DNA of 64,000 nt from Salinispora vitiensis (GTDB taxonomy: Bacteria > Actinomycetota > Actinomycetes > Mycobacteriales > Micromonosporaceae): assembly GCF_000378825.1 (NCBI RefSeq), contig NZ_KB900388.1, positions 4,781,901-4,845,900 of the forward strand. Reading direction: 5' to 3'. Both the position numbers and the translations under genes were made by a program. Below are positions 7,895 through 55,764 of this stretch, piece after piece (position 1 is the first letter of the stretch; each line of letters opens with the position of its first letter). The notes below the pieces were generated by a model. The model saw nothing but the letters and a program-made list of their open reading frames with translations, was not told the DNA's origin and did not search any database.

Positions 7895-8575
7895 TTACGC
7901 GGGGCGGCAGCCCGTCGGGGCGTCGTCAACGGAGGGAACCGTAGCGGTGATCGTCTCTGAGACGGGGGAGACCCACTGGAGCGGCTGGTCGTAGTCGTCG
8001 GGCACCCGGACCGTGACTGTCGTCTCCCGGTCGACGGTGCTCAGCACGGTGCCGCCCTCCGCCTCGTTGCCGTACCAGCAGACCCGGTTGACCAGCCAGA
8101 GCTTGTCGGTGTCGGCGAAGGTCGGTGCGGCACCGCCGCAGGCAACGGTGAGGGCGGGGTCACCGTACGCGGCATTCTGCTCGGGGCCGGCGGTGACCGG
8201 ACGCTGCGGCAGCTCCCGGATCGCCGGTGGAAGCTGGGAGAGCAGGGCGCGGCAGACGGTGGCGGGGCGCTCGGCCAGAGCCGGAGCGGCCATCTCCACC
8301 GGGGCGGTGGAGAGCGGCCCGGGGGCCGTCGCCGACGCACTCGGCTCGGATTCCGGCTGATCCGGGGCGAACTGGTTGAACGCCAGGACGCCGGCCAGCA
8401 CGGTGGCCGGGAGCGCGACCGCCGTCGCGATCAGGGCCGCGCCGCGGTTGGAGCGGTCCCGGCCGCCCTCCGGAGGCCCGTCGACGGCCGTCGGGCGGGC
8501 GGCGGTGTCGTCCCCGAGGGTGGGTGCGGCGTCGGGGGCGGTGGTGGTTTCAGAGGATTCGGGCAGCCTGCTCAC
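7895..8575 (-). CDS. DUF3515 membrane-anchored protein
   Basis: A 226-residue protein with a disordered, acidic N-terminus (about 45 residues), one transmembrane segment (AALIATAVALPATVLAGVLAF, residues about 46-66) and an extracytoplasmic domain with conserved-looking Cys residues (TVCRALLSQLPPAIR, VACGG, NRVCWYG). This matches DUF3515, an actinobacterial family of unknown function found near ddl/thiL. It starts GTG immediately after the stop of the Lrp-type gene (TAA-GTG, zero spacing), so they share a transcript. Confidence 0.82.
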   Translation of the reverse strand: MSRLPESSETTTAPDAAPTLGDDTAARPTAVDGPPEGGRDRSNRGAALIATAVALPATVLAGVLAFNQFAPDQPESEPSASATAPGPLSTAPVEMAAPALAERPATVCRALLSQLPPAIRELPQRPVTAGPEQNAAYGDPALTVACGGAAPTFADTDKLWLVNRVCWYGNEAEGGTVLSTVDRETTVTVRVPDDYDQPLQWVSPVSETITATVPSVDDAPTGCRPA

Positions 8576-8809
8576 TTAGAGACGCACCACCGAACAGGTG
8601 AGCGTACGGGTGATTCCCGGCACCATCTGCACCTTGCTGACGATGAGGTCGCCGAGCTCGTCCACGGTCGGCGCTTCGCAGAGCAGCACCACGTCGTAGG
8701 GCCCGGTCACGGCGTCGACGCGGACAACCCCGGTAATCTTCGCGATCTGACCGGCCACGTCACGCGCTTGGCCGACCTCTGTCTGGATGAGTATGTACGC
8801 CTGTACCAC
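8576..8809 (-). CDS. Stand-alone Lrp/AsnC ligand-binding (RAM) domain protein
   Basis: 77 residues, VQAYILIQTEVGQARDVAGQ ... GPYDVVLLCEAPTVDELG, which is the effector (RAM) domain of Lrp/AsnC regulators without the helix-turn-helix. Such single-domain proteins form oligomers and bind amino acids; some partner full-length Lrp proteins. The GTG at 8809 is chosen because GGAGGGAGGT lies 5-6 bases upstream. It heads a two-gene unit with DUF3515 and is divergent from thiL. Confidence 0.88.
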   Translation of the reverse strand: MVQAYILIQTEVGQARDVAGQIAKITGVVRVDAVTGPYDVVLLCEAPTVDELGDLIVSKVQMVPGITRTLTCSVVRL

Positions 8810-8905
8810 GTTCGACCTCCCTCCGTCGCCGCCGGATGAGCGGCCTGAAGGGAGAAAATACCCTACCGACCAGGCCGGATTCCGATCGGCGGAGAAGGAG
8901 AAGCG

Positions 8906-9859
8906 GTGAGCGAACGCGGCAACGGCGTCGTGGGGCTGGGTGAGTTCGGTCTGATCGACCGGGTTACCGCTCGGTTGTCCTACGGACCGACGGTCCTGCT
9001 CGGCCCCGGGGACGATGCGGCGGTGGTGGCCGCCGCCGACGCCCGGGTTGTCGCCTCCACCGATGTGCTGGTGGAGGGGCGGCATTTCCGGCGGGACTGG
9101 TCCGGAGCGCAGGACATCGGCCACCGGGCAGCTGCGGCGAACCTCGCCGACATCGCGGCGATGGGTGCGCGACCGACCGCCCTGCTGGTCGCCCTCTGCA
9201 TGCCACCGGAGCTGTCGCCCGGGTGGGCGGAGGAGCTGGCCGACGGCCTAGCCGCGGAGGCCGCCATCGTGGGGGCCAGCGTGGTGGGCGGGGACATGTC
9301 GGCGAGTCCCACCCTGACCATCGCGGTGACCGCACTCGGTGATCTCGGTGGCCGATCGCCGGTGACCCGGGCCGGGGCCCAGCCCGGTGACGTCCTGGCG
9401 CTCGCCGGCCGGACCGGGTACGCGGCAGCCGGCCTCACCGTCCTGTCCCGAGGCTTCCGGACCCCGCGGCTGCTGGTCGAGGCGTACCGACGACCGGAGG
9501 TGCCGTACCCGGCCGGACCGGCCGCGGCCGCCGCCGGTGCGACCGCGATGATCGATGCTTCGGATGGGCTCCTCGCCGATCTGGGGCATGTGGCCCAGGC
9601 GAGCGGGGTGGCGGTGGACGTGCGGCGGGATGCCTTCGCGGTGCCCCGGCAGATGCGCGACGCGGCCCAGGCGCTCGGCGTCGATCCGTACACCTGGCTG
9701 TTGACCGGCGGGGACGATCACGCCCTCGCGGCCACCTTCCCCCCGACGGCGGTGTTGCCGGCGGGTTGGCAGCCGATCGGCGCGGTGACCGCCGGCTCCG
9801 GGGTGACCGTTGACCAGCGGCAGTGGGAGGGCTCCGCCGGCTGGGACCACTTCCGGTAG
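8906..9859 (+). CDS. thiL: Thiamine-monophosphate kinase
   Basis: The 317-residue protein has the PurM/ThiL metal-ATP motif GPGDDAAVV (near residue 32), STDVLVEGRHF near residue 51, MIDASDGLLADL near residue 215 and GGDDHALAATF near residue 270. It phosphorylates thiamine phosphate to the cofactor thiamine diphosphate. GTG start at 8906 behind GGAGAAGGAG. The GNAT gene follows after 28 bp. No TPP riboswitch is seen upstream. Confidence 0.94.
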   Translation: MSERGNGVVGLGEFGLIDRVTARLSYGPTVLLGPGDDAAVVAAADARVVASTDVLVEGRHFRRDWSGAQDIGHRAAAANLADIAAMGARPTALLVALCMPPELSPGWAEELADGLAAEAAIVGASVVGGDMSASPTLTIAVTALGDLGGRSPVTRAGAQPGDVLALAGRTGYAAAGLTVLSRGFRTPRLLVEAYRRPEVPYPAGPAAAAAGATAMIDASDGLLADLGHVAQASGVAVDVRRDAFAVPRQMRDAAQALGVDPYTWLLTGGDDHALAATFPPTAVLPAGWQPIGAVTAGSGVTVDQRQWEGSAGWDHFR

Positions 9860-9887
9860 GCGCACCCGCCGGTCGTACCCTGCACTG

Positions 9888-10355
9888 GTGCGGAACCTGC
9901 AGATCCACCTCACCCGATTCGACTCGCCGACGGCACAGCGGCTGATCCAGGCGGCCCTCGCCGAGCTGGGCGTGCGATATGGCGGCAGCGGCGACGACAC
10001 CCCGGTGGACGCGGCCGAGTTCGAGCCGCCCGCTGGGACCTTCCTCGTCGCCGAGCTCGACGGCGAGTCCGTGGCCTGTGGCGGCTGGCGCAGCCACGAC
10101 GGGTCGGTCGAGACAGCCGAGCTGAAGCGGATGTACGTGGCACCGCACGTCCGGGGGCGGGGCGTGGCCCGAGCCATCCTGGCGGCGGTGGAACAGTCCG
10201 CGCGCGAGCAGGGCCGGCAGCGGATCGTCCTGGAGTGCGGCGATCGGCAACCCGAGGCGCTCGCGCTGTACCATTCATCCGGCTATGCGCGGATCCCGAA
10301 CTTTGGCTTCTACAAGGATGCCCCGGGCTGCGTCTCGTTCGGCCGGGCCCTCTGA
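9888..10355 (+). CDS. GNAT family N-acetyltransferase
   Basis: 155 residues with the GNAT motif A, ELKRMYVAPHVRGRGVARAI (residues about 80-99, R-x2-G-x-G/A acetyl-CoA loop VRGRGVA), and the C-terminal LYHSSGYARIPNFGFY strand typical of small-molecule acetyltransferases. Substrate unknown. The GTG at 9888 gives the family's normal length; no strong ribosome site is visible, so coupling to thiL is possible. In mycobacteria this slot between thiL and rpmB holds ung (from memory), which is absent here. Confidence 0.82.
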   Translation: MRNLQIHLTRFDSPTAQRLIQAALAELGVRYGGSGDDTPVDAAEFEPPAGTFLVAELDGESVACGGWRSHDGSVETAELKRMYVAPHVRGRGVARAILAAVEQSAREQGRQRIVLECGDRQPEALALYHSSGYARIPNFGFYKDAPGCVSFGRAL

Positions 10356-49333: not shown

Positions 49334-50139
49334 CGCCGCCGCGTACCGTGGTCCGCCGCGACGGCGGGCTCTACGCGCTGGAGCGTGCCCTGCAACGACG
49401 CGGATTTCAGCAGGTGGCCGGCGCCGACGAGGCCGGTCGGGGCGCCTGCGCCGGCCCTCTGGTGGCCGCCGCCGCCATCCTGCCACCGGGGCGGCGCGGG
49501 GAGATCGACGGACTCGCCGACTCCAAGCTGCTCACCCCGGCCAGCCGGGAACGGGTGTACGCGGAGGTCGTCGCTCGGGCGTCGGCGTACGCGGTGGTGG
49601 TGATCCCGGCGGCGGAGGTGGACCTGCGCGGACTGCACGTGTGCAACCTGGCGGCGATGCGTCGTGCGCTGGCGTCGCTGGTCACCCGGCCGGAGTACGT
49701 GCTGACCGACGGCTTCGGGGTGGACGGGCTGGACGTGCCCGGGTTGGCGGTCTGGAAGGGTGACCGGGTGGCGGCCTGCGTCGCGGCAGCCAGCGTGCTG
49801 GCCAAGGTCACCCGAGATCGGATCATGGTGGAGCTGGACCTGGAGTTCCCCGGGTACGGGTTCGCGGAGCACAAGGGTTACATCACCGCCGAGCACTCGG
49901 CTGCGCTGCGGGAACGCGGGCCATGCCCGGAACACCGGTTTTCGTACGTCAATGTCGCGACCGTCTCCGGCCGGCACGGGGCCCCGCCTCGGGCTCGTCG
50001 ACCGCTGGTCGCCGCGGCCGACGAGGCGATGGAACGCGCTGGGGTGGTAGAGGGTACCGTCGGCGTGGCGTTGGGCGACCGGCCCTGGGCTGCGGCGTCG
50101 GTGGGGAATGATGTGGCCATGGAAGGCGGGATGGGATGA
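49327..50139 (+). CDS. rnhB: Ribonuclease HII
   Basis: 270 residues. The DEDD catalytic site starts with VAGADEAGRGACAGPLVAA (D34, E35), LADSKLL near residue 60 and the later acidic residues in VLTDGF (near residue 122) and the DRIMVELD segment. Removes RNA primers and single ribonucleotides from DNA. The C-terminal ~60 residues are low-complexity. GTG start at 49327; overlaps the DUF2469 gene by four bases. Confidence 0.95.
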   Translation: MLTPPRTVVRRDGGLYALERALQRRGFQQVAGADEAGRGACAGPLVAAAAILPPGRRGEIDGLADSKLLTPASRERVYAEVVARASAYAVVVIPAAEVDLRGLHVCNLAAMRRALASLVTRPEYVLTDGFGVDGLDVPGLAVWKGDRVAACVAAASVLAKVTRDRIMVELDLEFPGYGFAEHKGYITAEHSAALRERGPCPEHRFSYVNVATVSGRHGAPPRARRPLVAAADEAMERAGVVEGTVGVALGDRPWAAASVGNDVAMEGGMG

Positions 50140-50459
50140 GCGCGGAAGATCTCGAAAAGTACGAGACGGAGATGGAGCTGCAGCTCTACCGGGAGTACCG
50201 CGACATCGTCCGCCAGTTCTCCTACGTCGTGGAGACCGAGCGTCGGTTCTATCTGGCGAACCAGGTCGACCTGCACGTGCGTAACTCGGACGGTGAGGTC
50301 TACTTCGAGGTCGAGATGCATGACGCCTGGGTGTGGGACATGTATCGTCCTGCCCGGTTCGTCAAGAACGTCCGGGTAATGACGTTTAAAGACGTCAATG
50401 TGGAAGAGCTGGAGAAGCCGGATATCTCGCTGCCGGCCGACTCAGGGTTCGGCAACTGA
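50136..50459 (+). CDS. DUF2469 protein
   Basis: 107 residues: MSAEDLEKYETEMELQLYRE, YVVETERRFYLANQVDLHVR, EVEMHDAWVWDMYRPARFVK. An extremely conserved actinobacterial family next to rnhB; function unknown, acidic and cytosolic. Start by ATGA overlap with rnhB. Confidence 0.95.
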   Translation: MSAEDLEKYETEMELQLYREYRDIVRQFSYVVETERRFYLANQVDLHVRNSDGEVYFEVEMHDAWVWDMYRPARFVKNVRVMTFKDVNVEELEKPDISLPADSGFGN

Positions 50460-50600
50460 CCTCCGGACCTCGCTGATCCTCCCGTTTCCCCAGCGGGCCC
50501 AGCTCCTGCGGCCCTGACCGCACCCCTGACGTCCCGACCGCACGTCACCCTGATCCCCTGGCCGGCCTTGGTATAGCAGATCGAAGCGCTTCCCGCGCTC

Positions 50601-50627
50601 TTGCCCACAGTGTTGTGGCTATCCACA
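50601..50627. promoter_or_regulatory. DnaA-box-like sites upstream of the M23 gene
   Basis: TTGCCCACA (50601-50609) and CTATCCACA (50619-50627) each match the actinobacterial DnaA box (T/C)(T/C)(G/A/C)TCCACA at 8 of 9 positions or better, 18 bp apart. The latter overlaps the left member of the inverted repeat discussed under findings. Confidence 0.35.
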
Positions 50628-50628
50628 G

Positions 50629-51330
50629 GTGCGCTGGGTGAGGGTGGCCGTCGACCGGCTGTCCGGGCAGGCTGCGGCCATGGAGCCGTCCCCGATCCTC
50701 GCCATCCTGCTCAGCGCCGAGCTGGTCACCATGCCCGCCGTGCCCGCACCGCCGTCGGTGGGGTCCAGGTCGCCGTTGGTGGGGCCCGCGTCGCCGGTGG
50801 TGGAGTCCATGTCGCCGTTGGTGGGGCCCGCGTCGCCGGTGGTGAGGTCCGCGCTTGGGGTTGGTTCCACGCCGGTTGCGGCGGGCTCCTCGTCGCCCAC
50901 GGCGGTCCCGGCTTTCCAGTGGCCGTTGCCCGGGGAGCCGCCGGTCGTGCGACGGTTCGATCCGCCGCCGCAGCCCTGGCTGCCCGGCCACCGCGGGGTT
51001 GACCTGGCAGCCGCCCCGGGCACGCCAGTGTTGGCGGCGGGCGATGGTGTGGTCACCTTCGCCGGTGCCGTGGCTGGCCGCCCGGTGCTCACCGTGACGC
51101 ACGCCGCCGGCCTACGGACCACCTATGAGCCGGTGCACTCCGATGTCGAGGTGGGCACACCGGTCCTGGCCGGAGTGGCGATCGGCCGGCTGCAGGCCGG
51201 CCACCCGGGCTGTGCTGCTGCGGCGTGCCTGCACTGGGGTCTGCGTCGCGGCGACACCTACCTGGACCCGTTGGCGCTGCTCGGTCGGGGGCCGATGCGG
51301 CTGCTGCCACTCGAGGGCGCGCCTCGGTAG
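50629..51330 (+). CDS. M23 family peptidase-like protein
   Basis: 233 residues. A hydrophobic N-terminal segment (PILAILLSAELVTM) may be a signal or anchor. The linker (about 40-85) contains two copies of a 14-residue repeat with core SPLVGPASPVV, encoded by a 42-bp DNA repeat (50769-50852). The C-terminal LytM domain has GHRGVDLAAAPGTPVLAAGD (H121/D125) and TTYEPVHSDV, but the HxH motif reads CLHWGLRR, with Cys in place of the first His. GTG start; the ATG 17 codons later is possible. It lies upstream of a secreted nucleoside hydrolase-like gene. Confidence 0.78.
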   Translation: MRWVRVAVDRLSGQAAAMEPSPILAILLSAELVTMPAVPAPPSVGSRSPLVGPASPVVESMSPLVGPASPVVRSALGVGSTPVAAGSSSPTAVPAFQWPLPGEPPVVRRFDPPPQPWLPGHRGVDLAAAPGTPVLAAGDGVVTFAGAVAGRPVLTVTHAAGLRTTYEPVHSDVEVGTPVLAGVAIGRLQAGHPGCAAAACLHWGLRRGDTYLDPLALLGRGPMRLLPLEGAPR

Positions 51331-51650
51331 TGGGTGTCCCAGCCCTCCGAAGCAGGCCAACATGCATCGATGCCGTGCTGGTCGGTCACGGCGGACGGGA
51401 ACCTCGGCGGTGCCCCCCGAACGCTTGCCTGATCCGGGCAAACCCGAGAGAAACCCACGATATCGCCAAAAGCTCGGATACTGTGACCTCTGACGGCGCT
51501 CGTGGGTAAACCTCGCACAGCTGCCTATCCGGCCCGTTCTCGTGCGGTGTGCACTAACGGTATCGCTTGGTGCCGGCGAACCTTCGAATCCTTCGCGCCG
51601 GATGGAGCAAGGTCCGAGCGCGAAATCTCTACACCCAGGAAGTGATGCTG
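51331..51650. other. Leader region of the nucleoside hydrolase gene (320 bp)
   Basis: ACCCACGA (51453-51460) pairs perfectly with TCGTGGGT (51500-51507), with an inner CGCC/GGCG stem (51464-51467 / 51495-51498); a GATACT hexamer (51477-51482) inside could be a -10 element. The region has lower GC than the neighbourhood. Ribosome site AGGAAG at 51637. No gene seen. Confidence 0.45.
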
Positions 51651-53183
51651 ATGTGGAAAATGGTACGTCCGACGAAAAGGCGCGCGTCCACGATCGCTGC
51701 CGGGGCGCTTGCCTGTACCGTGGCTGCCGGTGTGGTCGGCAGTATGCCACACGCGCTCGCGGATCCCACGTCGCCGTTAGCGCCGGAGAGCTCCCCGACA
51801 GTGCACGATGACGGTTTGGGTGCCCCCGATCGCAGCGGTTTTGTCCCGTCGGTTCCCCCTTCCGTGGAGCCTCAGCATCGGGGTGATCGGCAACGTGAGC
51901 CAGTAATTTTCTCTACCGATATGTCGATGGGGCTGACCACGGGTTCCCGTAACGGTATGTCCACCTCGGCCCCGGATATTGACGACTCGTACGCGCTCGC
52001 CCTTGCGTTGGCTCACGGGGTTGATGTGCGAGGCGTCGTGGTGACCATGGGAAATTCGATGGCTGGATCGACGGTGGTAACGGCGCAGGCGACGGTTGAC
52101 GCCCTCGGTGCGGATATACCCGTGGTCCAGGGGGCGGAGGTTTGGTTGCCGGTCGAGGCCCAGCAGACGACCGGTGGCGCGGATCTGACCAGTACCTGCG
52201 TCAACGACGGCGTCCGGTTCATGGCTGACCAGCTGCGGGAGACCGGCGGGCTGACGATCCTGGCGATCGGTCCGTTGACTGACGTGGCATGTCTGACGAT
52301 GAACTTTCCGGAAGAGGCCGCCCTCATCTCCCGGATCGTCGCCCTTGTCGGCAGTAAGCCGACGACAGTGTTCGAGATTTTCGGCACCCCGTTGGTTGAC
52401 TTCAACTACATCATGGACCCGCGTGCCGAGCAGATCCTCCTGGACGAAACGAACATTCCTTTCACGGCCATCACCTTCGACCTCTCCTCGCTGGCGCCGA
52501 TCCCGATCCCGGAGTTGGAGCGGCTGGCCACCAGTACGGACCCGCTTGCGCGTTTCTACGGCGAGTCGTCGATGCCGCGCCTGGAGTTGCTGAAGGAGAT
52601 AGAATTCGGCCCCGCGTACCCGATTTTTGACGCCGCCGCCGTATGGCATCTGATTCGGCCGCAAGACCAGGTATGTCAGCAGGCAGGCTATCGACTGAAG
52701 ACCGGATCGCCAGCGACAGCGGAGGCCGGGGAAACAGATATCTACGACTGGTTCTCGCCTGAGATCACCGAAACCCGGCAGGTCACCTCGTGCACGGGTT
52801 TCACGAGTAGGGAGGCGGCGGGCCGCTACCAGCATGCGATTCTTCAGGCCGTTGGCGGAGATGGGTGGACCGACCGGGATGTCCTTCTGAACGAGGAGGG
52901 GCCCCGGCGGACCGAGGACCGGGCAGCGTCGACTACCGGGCCGCTGTGGACCGACGAATGGGCTGCGCCGAACGGCACCGGGCCGCTGTCGACCGAGGAC
53001 TGGGCAGCGTCGACTACCGGGCCGCTGTGGACCGACGAGTGGGCTGCGCCGAACGGCACTGGGCCACTGTGGACCGAGGACTGGGAGCTCCCGACCGAGG
53101 AGGGGCTCCTGCGGACTGAGGAGTGGGCGCTTCCCACCGAGGAGAGCGCCACTTTGAATGAGGGGGGTGTTGTCCCGGAGTAA
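51651..53183 (+). CDS. Secreted nucleoside-hydrolase-like protein with Trp-rich repeat tail
   Basis: 510 residues. A signal peptide (RRASTIAAGALACTVAAGVV ... HALA, cleavage near 36) precedes an inosine/uridine-preferring nucleoside hydrolase domain (about 84-385): FSTD with D90, PDIDDSYALALA with D109/D111/D112, ILAIGPLTDVACL near residue 203, and VDFNYIMDPRAEQILLDE near residue 250. The calcium-binding Asp cluster, contiguous in the family (DTDPGIDDA), is split by an 18-residue insert. The tail (about 415-505) has repeats such as TGPLWTDEWAAPNG. The ATG at 51651 is preferred because AGGAAG is 8 bases upstream. Lower GC than neighbours; likely exported for nucleoside salvage or signalling. 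Confidence 0.82.
   Translation: MWKMVRPTKRRASTIAAGALACTVAAGVVGSMPHALADPTSPLAPESSPTVHDDGLGAPDRSGFVPSVPPSVEPQHRGDRQREPVIFSTDMSMGLTTGSRNGMSTSAPDIDDSYALALALAHGVDVRGVVVTMGNSMAGSTVVTAQATVDALGADIPVVQGAEVWLPVEAQQTTGGADLTSTCVNDGVRFMADQLRETGGLTILAIGPLTDVACLTMNFPEEAALISRIVALVGSKPTTVFEIFGTPLVDFNYIMDPRAEQILLDETNIPFTAITFDLSSLAPIPIPELERLATSTDPLARFYGESSMPRLELLKEIEFGPAYPIFDAAAVWHLIRPQDQVCQQAGYRLKTGSPATAEAGETDIYDWFSPEITETRQVTSCTGFTSREAAGRYQHAILQAVGGDGWTDRDVLLNEEGPRRTEDRAASTTGPLWTDEWAAPNGTGPLSTEDWAASTTGPLWTDEWAAPNGTGPLWTEDWELPTEEGLLRTEEWALPTEESATLNEGGVVPE
52909..53160 (+). repeat. 81-bp tandem repeat encoding Trp-rich tail
   Basis: Two near-identical 81-bp units begin at 52923 and 53004 (27 residues each), built from two half-repeats of the type TGPLWTDEWAAPNG and TGPLSTEDWAAST; degenerate half-repeats continue to about 53160 (WTEDWELPTEE, RTEEWALPTEE). 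Confidence 0.9.
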
Positions 53184-53199
53184 CGGGAACCTGCCAAGC

Positions 53200-53238
53200 A
53201 CGGGCTACGTCCCCACGCCGAGTGGGTGCGTAGCCCGT
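53200..53238. terminator. Bidirectional terminator between nucleoside hydrolase and xerC
   Basis: ACGGGCTACG / CGTAGCCCGT (10 bp) with inner CCCAC-gccga-GTGGG, between two converging genes. Confidence 0.8.
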
Positions 53239-53343
53239 TCGCCTCCGTGGCTATCGCTGTGACCCGCGGGGATGGTCGTGACCGGTGCCCGCTCTGGCGC
53301 ACCCGCAGGATCTGCAGGCGAACAGCGCGGCGGGACCGCCGGC

Positions 53344-54369
53344 TCACGCCCGAGGGTGGGCCTGCCGGTATGCGGCCCGCAGCCGCTCGACCGAGACGTG
53401 GGTGTAGATCTGGGTACTGGCCAGCGAGGAGTGCCCGAGCAGTTCCTGCACCGCCCGCAGGTCAGCGCCCCCCTCCAACAGGTGGGTGGCCGCCGCGTGC
53501 CGTAGCCCGTGCGGGCTGGTCCGGGGTAGGCCCGCCGCGGTCGCGTATCGCCCGACGATCTTCCGCGCGGTGGTCGGGTTGAGCCGGCCGCCCCGCGCCC
53601 CGAGCAGCAGCGCAGTCCCTGATCGGGCGCCGACCAGCCGGGGACGGCCGTCGCGTAGCCACGCGTCGCACGCCCGTTGCGCCGGGACTCCGTACGGCAC
53701 GCTGCGTTCCCGGCCCCCTTTGCCGAGCACCCGGAGCACCCGCCGGCCCGGGTCCACGTCGGCGACGTCCAGCCCGCACGCCTCACTGACCCGGACCCCG
53801 GTCGCGTACAGCAGCTCCAGCAGCAGTTGGTCTCGCAGCCGGACCGGGTCGGCGGCACCCGACTGGACGTCATCGGTCGGCTGGTCTTGGGGCGCCGCGT
53901 GCGCCGCCTCCAACAGGGCAGCGGCCTGATCAACCGGGAGTACGGCGGGTAGCTCCCGGTGGGCGCGGGGACTGGCCAGGCCGGCGGCGACGTCGGTCGG
54001 TAGCCGGCCGTCGCGGTGCGCCCAGGTGCTGAAGGTGCGGGCCGCGGCGGACCTTCGGGCCAGTGTGGACCGAGCGGCTCCCGTCGTGCGGTGTCGGGCC
54101 AGCCAGCTGCGGATCTGTGTCAGCGTGAGGCCAGCGGGGGCCTGGGCTCCCGCCCGTACGGCGTGGTCGAGCAGGCTGATGACATCGGCGACGTACGCCC
54201 GGACGGTGTGGGCGGAGCGGTTCTGGACCTGGGCCAGCTGGGTCGCGAAGTCGTCCGCCGCCTCGCGTAGCGGCGCAGGGAGCGCCGCATGCCGGGCCCG
54301 GGTCGCTTCGCCTCGCTTCACTGCCTGACCTCGCTTCACTGCCGGGCCTCGTGTCAGCTGGTCACCCAT
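53344..54369 (-). CDS. xerC: Tyrosine recombinase XerC
   Basis: 341 residues from the ATG at 54369. N-terminal SAM-like core-binding domain (about 30-130), then the catalytic domain with R193 (TGVRVSE), K217 (LGKGGRER), H287/R290 (HGLRHAAATHLL), H313 (LGHSSL) and nucleophile Y322 (IYTHV): all present. Resolves chromosome dimers at dif. The start codon sits in the 3' arm of a 20-bp hairpin, so the true start may be downstream; the first ~30 residues hold a duplicated VKRGQA/VKRGEA segment (18-bp repeat at 54311 and 54329) and are not conserved. Confidence 0.93.
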   Translation of the reverse strand: MGDQLTRGPAVKRGQAVKRGEATRARHAALPAPLREAADDFATQLAQVQNRSAHTVRAYVADVISLLDHAVRAGAQAPAGLTLTQIRSWLARHRTTGAARSTLARRSAAARTFSTWAHRDGRLPTDVAAGLASPRAHRELPAVLPVDQAAALLEAAHAAPQDQPTDDVQSGAADPVRLRDQLLLELLYATGVRVSEACGLDVADVDPGRRVLRVLGKGGRERSVPYGVPAQRACDAWLRDGRPRLVGARSGTALLLGARGGRLNPTTARKIVGRYATAAGLPRTSPHGLRHAAATHLLEGGADLRAVQELLGHSSLASTQIYTHVSVERLRAAYRQAHPRA

Positions 54370-54398
54370 CGGTCCGGCGGACCGATGGTGACCAGCTG
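54355..54398 (-). terminator. Near-perfect inverted repeat over the xerC start
   Basis: Arms CAGCTGGTCACCCATCGGTCC (21 nt, written in two parts: CAGCTGGTCACC-C and ATCGGTCC) and the 20-nt complement at 54379-54398 pair with one bulged base around a GGC loop. It lies between the dprA stop (54460) and xerC on the minus strand. It may terminate dprA transcripts or block xerC translation. Confidence 0.6.
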
Positions 54399-54459
54399 GT
54401 CGGCGTTGCACCCGACCAGCCTACGGGCGCCTTGCCTGCTCCTGCGGTCCCGACGGCTC

Positions 54460-55764
54460 CTACGGTCCCGACGGCTCCTGCGGCGTCGATGGCTTCTGCG
54501 GCGTCAGCGGGGGCGAGAGCGCGTACCCGTCGCCGCGTCGGCTGACCAGGCCCAGCTCCTCAAGGAGGGCCAGCTTGCGCAGCGCTGTCCGTGCCATCAC
54601 CCCGGACCGGGCTGCGATGTCGTCAACTCCGCGTACGCCTCGCCGGGGCAGCGCCTCCAACACCATCGTGGACTCGTCGTCTAGTTGGTCCCGTACCCGC
54701 GCCGGACCACGTACCTGTGGTGCCAGGTCCCCACCGATGCGACCCACCTCCTCGAGCACCTGCGCGGGGGAGGTGACCAGCCGGGCTTCTGGGTACTGCC
54801 GGAGCAGCTCATGCGCTCCGACAGACATGGTGGAGGTGACCGGGCCGGGCACCACCATCGCCGGCCGGGCGATCGCCAGGGCCCGGTGCATCGTCTGGGT
54901 CGCTCCGCTGCGGGCGGCGGCCTCGACCAGCACACTGCCCCGGGTCGCCGCGGCGATCACCCGGTTGCGGATCAGGAATCGGGGCCGCAGCGGATCCGCC
55001 CCCGGTACCCACTCGCTGATCAGCAGCCCGGTGTCGGCGATCCGCTCGAAGAGGGCGGCATTGCCCATCGGGTAAGGCCGGTCCAGGCCGCAGGCGAGCA
55101 CGGAGACGGTCAGCCCACCGGCGGTCAGCGCTCCCCGGTGCGCGGCGGCGTCGATGCCGAACGCCCCGCCCGAGACGATCGTCCAACCCCGCTCCGCCAG
55201 TCCGTACGCCAGCTCGGTGCCCACGTGGATGCCGTAGCCGGTCGCGGCCCGGGCGCCCACCAGCGCGACCGACCGGTCCAGCGTCTCGGCCAGGGAGTGC
55301 CCACCCCGCACCCAGAAGCAGAGCGGTGGGGCGGTCTCCCGGTCGACCCGGCGGGTCGAACTCGCCAGGACGAGGCGGTGTAGGTCGTCGACGGGCAGTG
55401 GCCACTCGTCGTCGGCTGGTGTTACCAGCCGGGCACCGAGGCGGTCGGCACGCTCCATCGCCTCCGTGGCTACTGCCAGCGGATCTCCGGCCGACAGCCG
55501 GGCTGTCACGGTTTGCCGCAGTGCCTCCTCGGGGGCGCCGCCCTCCCGCAGCAGGGCCAGCGCGCCAACCGCGCCATGCTGCTCGACCAAACTGGAGACG
55601 GACCGGTTACCCGGTTCGGCAATCCAGGTCAACGCCACCCGCGCGAGGCGGTCGGCATCGAGTGCTGTCACTGCTGGCGGGCCACTGGTGGGGTGCCTCA
55701 TCCCGGCCTGCTCCGGGCTTCCCGCTGGCCCGAACCCCCCGCCGGCCTCTCCCCGGGTGGTCAC
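54460..55764 (-). CDS. dprA: DNA-processing protein DprA
   Basis: 434 residues. A helical N-terminus, the Rossmann DprA core (SVALVGARAATGYGIHVGTE near residue 165, GGAFGIDAAAHRGAL near residue 198, SEWVPGADPLRPRFLIRNR near residue 253) and a C-terminal winged-helix domain (about 350-415). Loads RecA on incoming single-stranded DNA. The GTG at 55764 overlaps the yifB stop (GTGA). The last 18 residues repeat PQKPS/PQEPS through an 18-bp DNA repeat. Confidence 0.93.
   Translation of the reverse strand: MTTRGEAGGGFGPAGSPEQAGMRHPTSGPPAVTALDADRLARVALTWIAEPGNRSVSSLVEQHGAVGALALLREGGAPEEALRQTVTARLSAGDPLAVATEAMERADRLGARLVTPADDEWPLPVDDLHRLVLASSTRRVDRETAPPLCFWVRGGHSLAETLDRSVALVGARAATGYGIHVGTELAYGLAERGWTIVSGGAFGIDAAAHRGALTAGGLTVSVLACGLDRPYPMGNAALFERIADTGLLISEWVPGADPLRPRFLIRNRVIAAATRGSVLVEAAARSGATQTMHRALAIARPAMVVPGPVTSTMSVGAHELLRQYPEARLVTSPAQVLEEVGRIGGDLAPQVRGPARVRDQLDDESTMVLEALPRRGVRGVDDIAARSGVMARTALRKLALLEELGLVSRRGDGYALSPPLTPQKPSTPQEPSGP

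Follow-up and report, generated by a model that had tools for sequence, protein, structure and literature searches.

The window analysed here is a 64,000-nucleotide stretch of the genome of Salinispora vitiensis, whose genus has drawn attention through its natural products. On its forward strand, positions 51651..53183 encode a 510-residue protein that matches the nucleoside hydrolase family PF01156 (IU_nuc_hydro) over residues 109-349 with 101.4 bits (gathering cut-off 34.2), the only match to this family in the whole genome. The ATG at 51651 is common to all eight aligned sequences (the S. vitiensis gene and seven orthologs) and is preceded by AGGAAG in seven of them and by AGGAG in S. cortesiana; an alternative in-frame ATG at 51645 is lost in the outgroup genome G647. 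A block reading [GA]G[AG]TA[CG]TGTGA, at 51476-51486 of the window and roughly 165-175 bases 5' of the start, is present in the same eight sequences and may be a promoter -10 region. The signal peptide that had been predicted for the protein looks by eye like one of the Sec type: KRR, then a mostly hydrophobic segment and A-L-A at residues 35-37, with the cleavage region A-L-A-[DE] kept in all seven Salinispora proteins. The gene and its parts are as follows.

51651..53183, + strand: gene for a predicted exported nucleoside hydrolase, 510 aa (open reading frame, PF01156, start shared by 8/8 aligned sequences)
51651..51761, + strand: putative Sec-type signal peptide, residues 1-37, AxA cleavage after A37 (by eye)
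51762..51890, + strand: variable linker, residues 38-80 (from dN/dS)
51891..52859, + strand: nucleoside-hydrolase domain, residues 81-403 (PF01156, 102.8 bits; fold model Z 23.3; dN/dS)
51918..51920, + strand: D90, corresponding to canonical Asp10, a calcium ligand (invariant; placed on the second D of D-x-D by a profile built without Salinispora)
51921..51974, + strand: insert loop between D90 and D109, of the MGLTTG..RNG type, net +17 residues (profile alignment)
51975..51986, + strand: D109-I-D111-D112, with D111/D112 at canonical Asp14/Asp15 and D109 at the Gly12 position (profile alignment)
52053..52055, + strand: N135 of the GN ribose-binding motif (invariant)
52197..52199, + strand: clade-specific cysteine C183 (invariant in 8 clade-alignment rows)
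52290-52292, + strand: C214, another of the four clade-specific cysteines
52626..52631, + strand: F326-D327, with D327 as the fourth calcium Asp and F326 at the RihA His240 position (by alignment, opposite the H-D pair of solved enzymes)
52674-52676, + strand: C342, third of the four cysteines
52791-52793, + strand: C381, last of the four cysteines
52860..53180, + strand: acidic repeat tail, residues 404-510, net charge -19 (absent from G647, L207, L208, L209, L210 and L212)
52910..53085, + strand: 81-bp tandem array within the tail, 2.2 copies at 94% (score 317)

The hydrolase gene stands alone, with an M23-peptidase-like gene on one side and xerC-dprA-comM on the other strand, names that we presume from the look of the proteins. 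Downstream, xerC and then dprA follow in the seven Salinispora loci and in G647, while the distance from the M23 gene to the hydrolase varies from 0.3-0.5 kb here (about 0.3) and in S. pacifica to 14.8 kb in S. oceanensis, in keeping with the rearranged spot that had been proposed. The S. oceanensis gap (G683, L077 1405-14446) holds FG-GAP, Laminin_G_3 and RHS-repeat genes that are absent from this window, together with a teneurin-shell match below its cut-off, and looks like a polymorphic-toxin-type locus. By eye, related-looking ORFs occupy the gap in S. cortesiana and S. mooreana (L080, L081), a regulator-like ORF that in S. fenicalii, and a transposase-like ORF lies between the hydrolase gene and xerC in G647 (L082, reverse-complemented, 8566-10284). 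No RNA families were found at 50000-54500.

The claim that the gene is less GC-rich than its neighbours is true of rnhB, M23, xerC and comM (GC 0.729-0.752, GC3 0.83-0.88, against 0.644 for the gene, 0.620 for its core and a GC3 of 0.762), with dprA at a GC3 of 0.806, but not of DUF2469, which is lower overall (0.580), and rplS has a total GC of 0.649. Since the G647 gene is also GC-low (0.627, against 0.691 for its locus), we regard the composition as a trait of the gene lineage and see in it no sign of a recent arrival in the genome.

A nucleoside-hydrolase domain with a split aspartate motif

Excerpts of PMC10526354 and PMC3608555 present a contiguous DXDXXXDD as the hallmark of nucleoside hydrolases, the former adding a DXDXXXXXDD variant in some fungi. 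The S. vitiensis protein has neither: it reads S-T-D90, then 20 residues, then D111-D112, but the equivalent residues are present. A profile of nine enzymes, none from Salinispora, aligns to the protein across the insert with 131 bits and puts D90, D111, D112 and D327 on canonical metal/ribose positions. The original prediction had read D90 together with D109, D111 and D112 as an interrupted calcium/catalytic cluster, with 18 residues between D90 and D109 (a net insertion of 17 relative to the canonical D-P-G-x-D-D spacing); the positions are exact, and the profile alignment and the predicted fold both favour that assignment. Also present are G134-N135, P208-x-T210 and D250-F-N252, the last corresponding to the ExN ribose motif with E replaced by D. 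DXD, in contrast, starts with Ser where Asp would be canonical, the loop of the His82 type is absent, and so is the His that precedes the last Asp. No change is seen at the four metal-site Asp or the GN/FN residues in eight alignment rows that include relatives 39-46% identical. The insert does not vary in length among the seven Salinispora proteins, and only three of its positions carry substitutions. Selection differs along the chain: dN/dS is 0.24-0.45 for residues 1-80 (10 ortholog pairs) and 0.05-0.11 for the core in 10 ortholog pairs (0.07-0.11 for this gene against the other seven orthologs), so that the core is under strong purifying selection.

The claimed nucleoside-hydrolase fold is borne out by structure prediction. 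A model of residues 81-403 from a nine-row alignment, which took in three distant partial viral-contig rows, reached a pLDDT of 64.7 and a pTM of 0.75, falling below pLDDT 50 at model residues 13-28 (the insert), 86-96, 155-173, 271-295, others, and parts of the C-terminal region; a mature-protein model from six near-identical rows had a pLDDT of 27. The closest fold match of the core model was 4kpn (Z 23.3, 262 residues, rmsd 4.1), and the best Foldseek matches, like the 50 PDB entries listed in a second comparison, were without exception hydrolases of nucleosides or ribosides, or XopQ, an effector homologous to them, among them the group II enzyme 4i75 (Z 20.6) and XopQ with ADP-ribose, 4p5f (Z 19.1).

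According to the accessible text of PMC10526354, group I enzymes have His ahead of the last Asp, group II enzymes Trp and group III enzymes Cys, and group II relies on aromatic stacking where group I uses His; that of PMC2898832 deals with the role of RihA His240. At this position the Salinispora proteins have Phe, as does L212, and L207-L210, that is, four of the five other complete clade members, have Trp; the protein thus carries neither the group I His nor the group III Cys, its four cysteines lying elsewhere. By profile it belongs to PF01156 and fits none of groups I-III cleanly. It shares with RihA, RihB, RihC and IU-NH (group I) the fold, the metal Asp residues, the GN, FN and PLT motifs and the last Asp, but differs from them in its split motif, the Ser, the absent His82 loop, Phe/Trp for His240, four clade-specific cysteines and an export signal. 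In its mode of action it may come nearest to group II. The trypanosome (IAG) hydrolases of that group likewise have an aromatic before the last Asp and share the fold, although they score lower and over partial length with a mixed profile, are not listed by the clade profile at 1e-5 and space their motifs differently.

Relatives of the hydrolase in other actinomycetes

Orthologs 75-89% identical occur in S. pacifica, S. fenicalii, S. mooreana, S. oceanensis and S. cortesiana. A DNA search of the genus group (160 genomes) matched the hydrolase part in eight genomes among the matches listed, seven taken as Salinispora plus the outgroup G647, where identity is 73% for the xerC protein and 62% for M23. 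In the family search (250 genomes), catalytic-domain matches above 39% identity came only from G000 and G181, and the phylum search (396 genomes, E <=1e-12) gave no further genome above 39%. Among 296 genomes of the class, a profile search identified a protein in G808 (L190/L207) that is 45% identical over 334 columns, insert included, and belongs to another actinobacterial order than Salinispora. Within the order of G808, six of 166 genomes match at E <=1e-20: G808 (45% identical), G998 (46%), G1056 (45%), G1062 (45%), the more distant G780 (36%), and G1061, whose partial relative, cut by a contig end, is 52% identical. Plasmids gave matches in 44 of 72,556 records (the best 20 of the 44 all <=31% identical) and phages in three of 50,697 (all three <=31%), while DNA-pattern scans of viral contigs and a related-locus scan gave three distinct nucleoside hydrolases, all partial; phyla beyond Actinomycetota were covered as plasmids, phages, viral contigs and one contig scan with close-relative patterns. 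Elsewhere in the class, six nucleoside-hydrolase matches lie within 11 kb on one contig of G959 (C2 81673-92295, partly covered by L202).

Wherever the sequence reaches, these relatives have in common C183, C214, C342, C381, D-F-N, [WF]-D-A and an export-type signal, and all eight rows of the clade alignment match PF01156. By eye, the signals are lipobox-like in L207, L209, L210 and L211, Sec-type in L208 and Salinispora and ambiguous in L212, and the insert adds a net 17 residues in L207-L211, against 13 in L212. Insert lengths were also extracted by regular expression from 81 ORFs, 77 of which gave a motif match, and only rows checked by eye were used, the lengths of 10-16 and 20-28, the 17 of L194 and the 7 of L202|+|329 being artefacts in which an upstream Asp was caught. 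Inspection of ORFs by eye around L207-L210 and L212 revealed no common neighbour that we recognised.

A tree of 78 domains built with IQ-TREE, comprising 13 clade members, the Salinispora proteins among them, and 65 other nucleoside hydrolases chosen by similarity rather than at random, separates the 13 from the rest by a branch 1.7 changes per site long with support 100/100, L212 being a long end branch whose placement is less sure. Left out were the duplicate loci L001, L037, L177 and L190, as well as L084 and L147, and domains shorter than 200 residues (hence L211). The clade does not mix with actinobacterial hydrolases carrying DTDxAMGAPGSDIDD, which resemble it in having an insert at the same place (7 residues) and M-G and D-I-D-D motifs, but form a separate group of 12 rows, also at 100/100. 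Motifs of this kind were seen in L179-L184, L010, L011, L013, L019 and L025; in L010, L011, L013 and L019 the motif lies too near a Met to leave room for a signal peptide.

Proposed activity and its alternatives

We propose, with a probability of about 0.6 and on the strength of sequence and model, that the gene product is exported and acts as a calcium-dependent ribonucleoside hydrolase, and that it belongs to a distinct PF01156 clade. In such an enzyme D90, D112 and D327 would hold the Ca2+, D111 would activate the water, and N135, N252 and D327 would grip the ribose. The roles given to single Asp residues follow PMC10526354 and PMC2898832 and the general background of the family. Release of the base would proceed by aromatic stacking, through the Trp/Phe before the last Asp and possibly W165 (a guess as the second aromatic), instead of the group I histidines; the four cysteines would form disulfides outside the cell, and the Gly/Asn-rich insert, placed at the entrance of the site, would act there as a lid or a substrate loop. 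By analogy, stacking suggests purine nucleosides or related ribosides as substrate, although a purine preference is only a guess because the group II Trp is not conserved in all purine-specific enzymes, as the excerpted text of PMC10526354 has it.

Extracellular nucleoside turnover has a parallel, in function only, in Arabidopsis NSH3, an apoplastic plant protein for which the consulted part of PMC4688390 describes turnover of inosine to hypoxanthine. An excerpt of PMC3350403 deals with uridine that is imported and then cut by the hydrolase uriH, and a paper on the proteins that Asaia releases (PMC12502724) mentions a nucleoside hydrolase. The open-access literature covered on secreted, extracellular or lipoprotein nucleoside hydrolases and their subfamilies, as far as its excerpts go, does not describe the clade, and we found nothing in open-access work linking Salinispora with a nucleoside hydrolase.

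Several observations count against a conventional hydrolase: the spacing of the Asp motif departs from DXDXXXDD, the model has low confidence at the insert as at some other places, D rather than E stands ahead of the conserved FN, and, by analogy, an effector with an altered motif is reported without activity on standard nucleosides. This effector, HopQ1, and its homolog XopQ are type III effectors that resemble the present protein in a nucleoside-hydrolase-like fold, an altered Asp motif and a D-x-D-D core. They lend some credit to an unlikely but serious alternative, in which the ribose/calcium site is kept for another ribosyl substrate (ADP-ribose or an NAD-type compound, or a modified or antibiotic nucleoside) and the insert reads the non-ribose part, as proposed for HopQ1. 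The loss of both group I histidines, the clade-specific loop beside an active-site Asp and the presence of the XopQ-ADP-ribose complex among the fold matches would suit such a substrate, as would the report in the available text of PMC3608555 that HopQ1, with its motif DXXXDXDD, was inactive on standard nucleosides. However, XopQ is nearest neither by sequence, where it scores lowest of 35 PDB sequences in the mixed-profile listing, nor by fold; the effectors also differ in delivery route and extra domains, and their spacing is not that seen here, where D90 lies 21 residues ahead of D111.

That the protein is instead a secreted, non-catalytic riboside-binding protein with a retained fold is improbable: its motif does differ in spacing from the one reported for characterised enzymes and has Ser for the first Asp, but invariance of the metal-site Asp and GN/FN residues out to the 39-46% relatives, and the purifying selection on the core, argue against it. 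We keep nucleoside turnover outside the cell, the activity originally suggested, as the best guess from the sequence; the aromatic tether that was coupled to it is another matter.

The acidic repeat tail

The tail had been described as an array of W-T-[DE]-[DE]-W repeats. Tandem repeats are real, with an 81-bp unit and sub-periods of 42 bp and 21 bp in the DNA, but the full motif occurs in only three of the six matching units, the others reading STEDW, RTEEW and RTEDR. All seven Salinispora genomes keep an open-frame tail of 62-121 residues and net charge -11 to -27. Its Trp content is nine in S. vitiensis, S. pacifica and S. oceanensis and two or three in S. fenicalii, S. mooreana, S. cortesiana and the probable S. 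tropica genome G181, where the units are commonly TDEG; across these tails Trp often gives way to Gly and copy number varies, while acidity is kept. In eight within-Salinispora pairs dN/dS is 0.30-0.65 for the tail, values made rough by the alignment of repeats, against 0.05-0.10 for the core.

Outside Salinispora, the tail is missing from all six relatives whose C-terminus is seen: the G647 protein ends 23 residues past the domain, and L207-L210 and L212 end within about seven. The tail has no Pfam match, and its own genome holds no convincing second copy, only four weak matches (E 0.038 to 0.48). Two tail-only matches from the family search were set aside, one in G164 (38%, E 5.8e-4) being built of a Pro/Thr/His/Arg repeat that lacks the acidic T[DE][DE] unit and one in G093 (44%, E 7.6e-4) being patchy and chance-like.

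Because these six relatives outside Salinispora lack the tail and Trp is lost while acidity is kept, we read it as an acidic spacer gained in Salinispora; judged by its sequence it is probably disordered and not a Trp wall anchor, and appears fast-changing. A wall- or glycan-binding aromatic repeat that anchors the enzyme is very improbable, for although the repeats are in frame, open in every Salinispora genome and rich in Trp in three species, Trp falls to two or three in four others, the relatives lack the tail altogether, and neither Pfam nor the rest of the genome (best E 0.038) offers a convincing match; the proposed tether is not supported. As a rapidly turning-over addition confined to Salinispora, the tail would be dispensable for catalysis. 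Nor do insert and tail form a single package, as had been supposed: the insert recurs in the non-Salinispora relatives and the tail does not, and the two evolve independently, with different histories.

The lasting interest thus lies in the exported split-motif clade and not in the tail, whose lesson is one of caution, since the repeat that catches the eye in a protein may be what is conserved least. It is quite possible, though we would stop short of betting on it, that these exported four-cysteine actinomycete enzymes, with a 13-17-residue MGLxxG-type loop splitting the Asp motif and an aromatic in place of the catalytic His, make up a separate clade and a new functional group that acts on a substrate of its own outside the cell, to which Salinispora then added an independent acidic tail. 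A clade that keeps the residues yet splits DXDXXXDD makes the hallmark rule testable, and annotation based on the motif would miss it. If our reading holds, extracellular turnover of nucleosides, or of other ribosides, would be a common trait of Salinispora.
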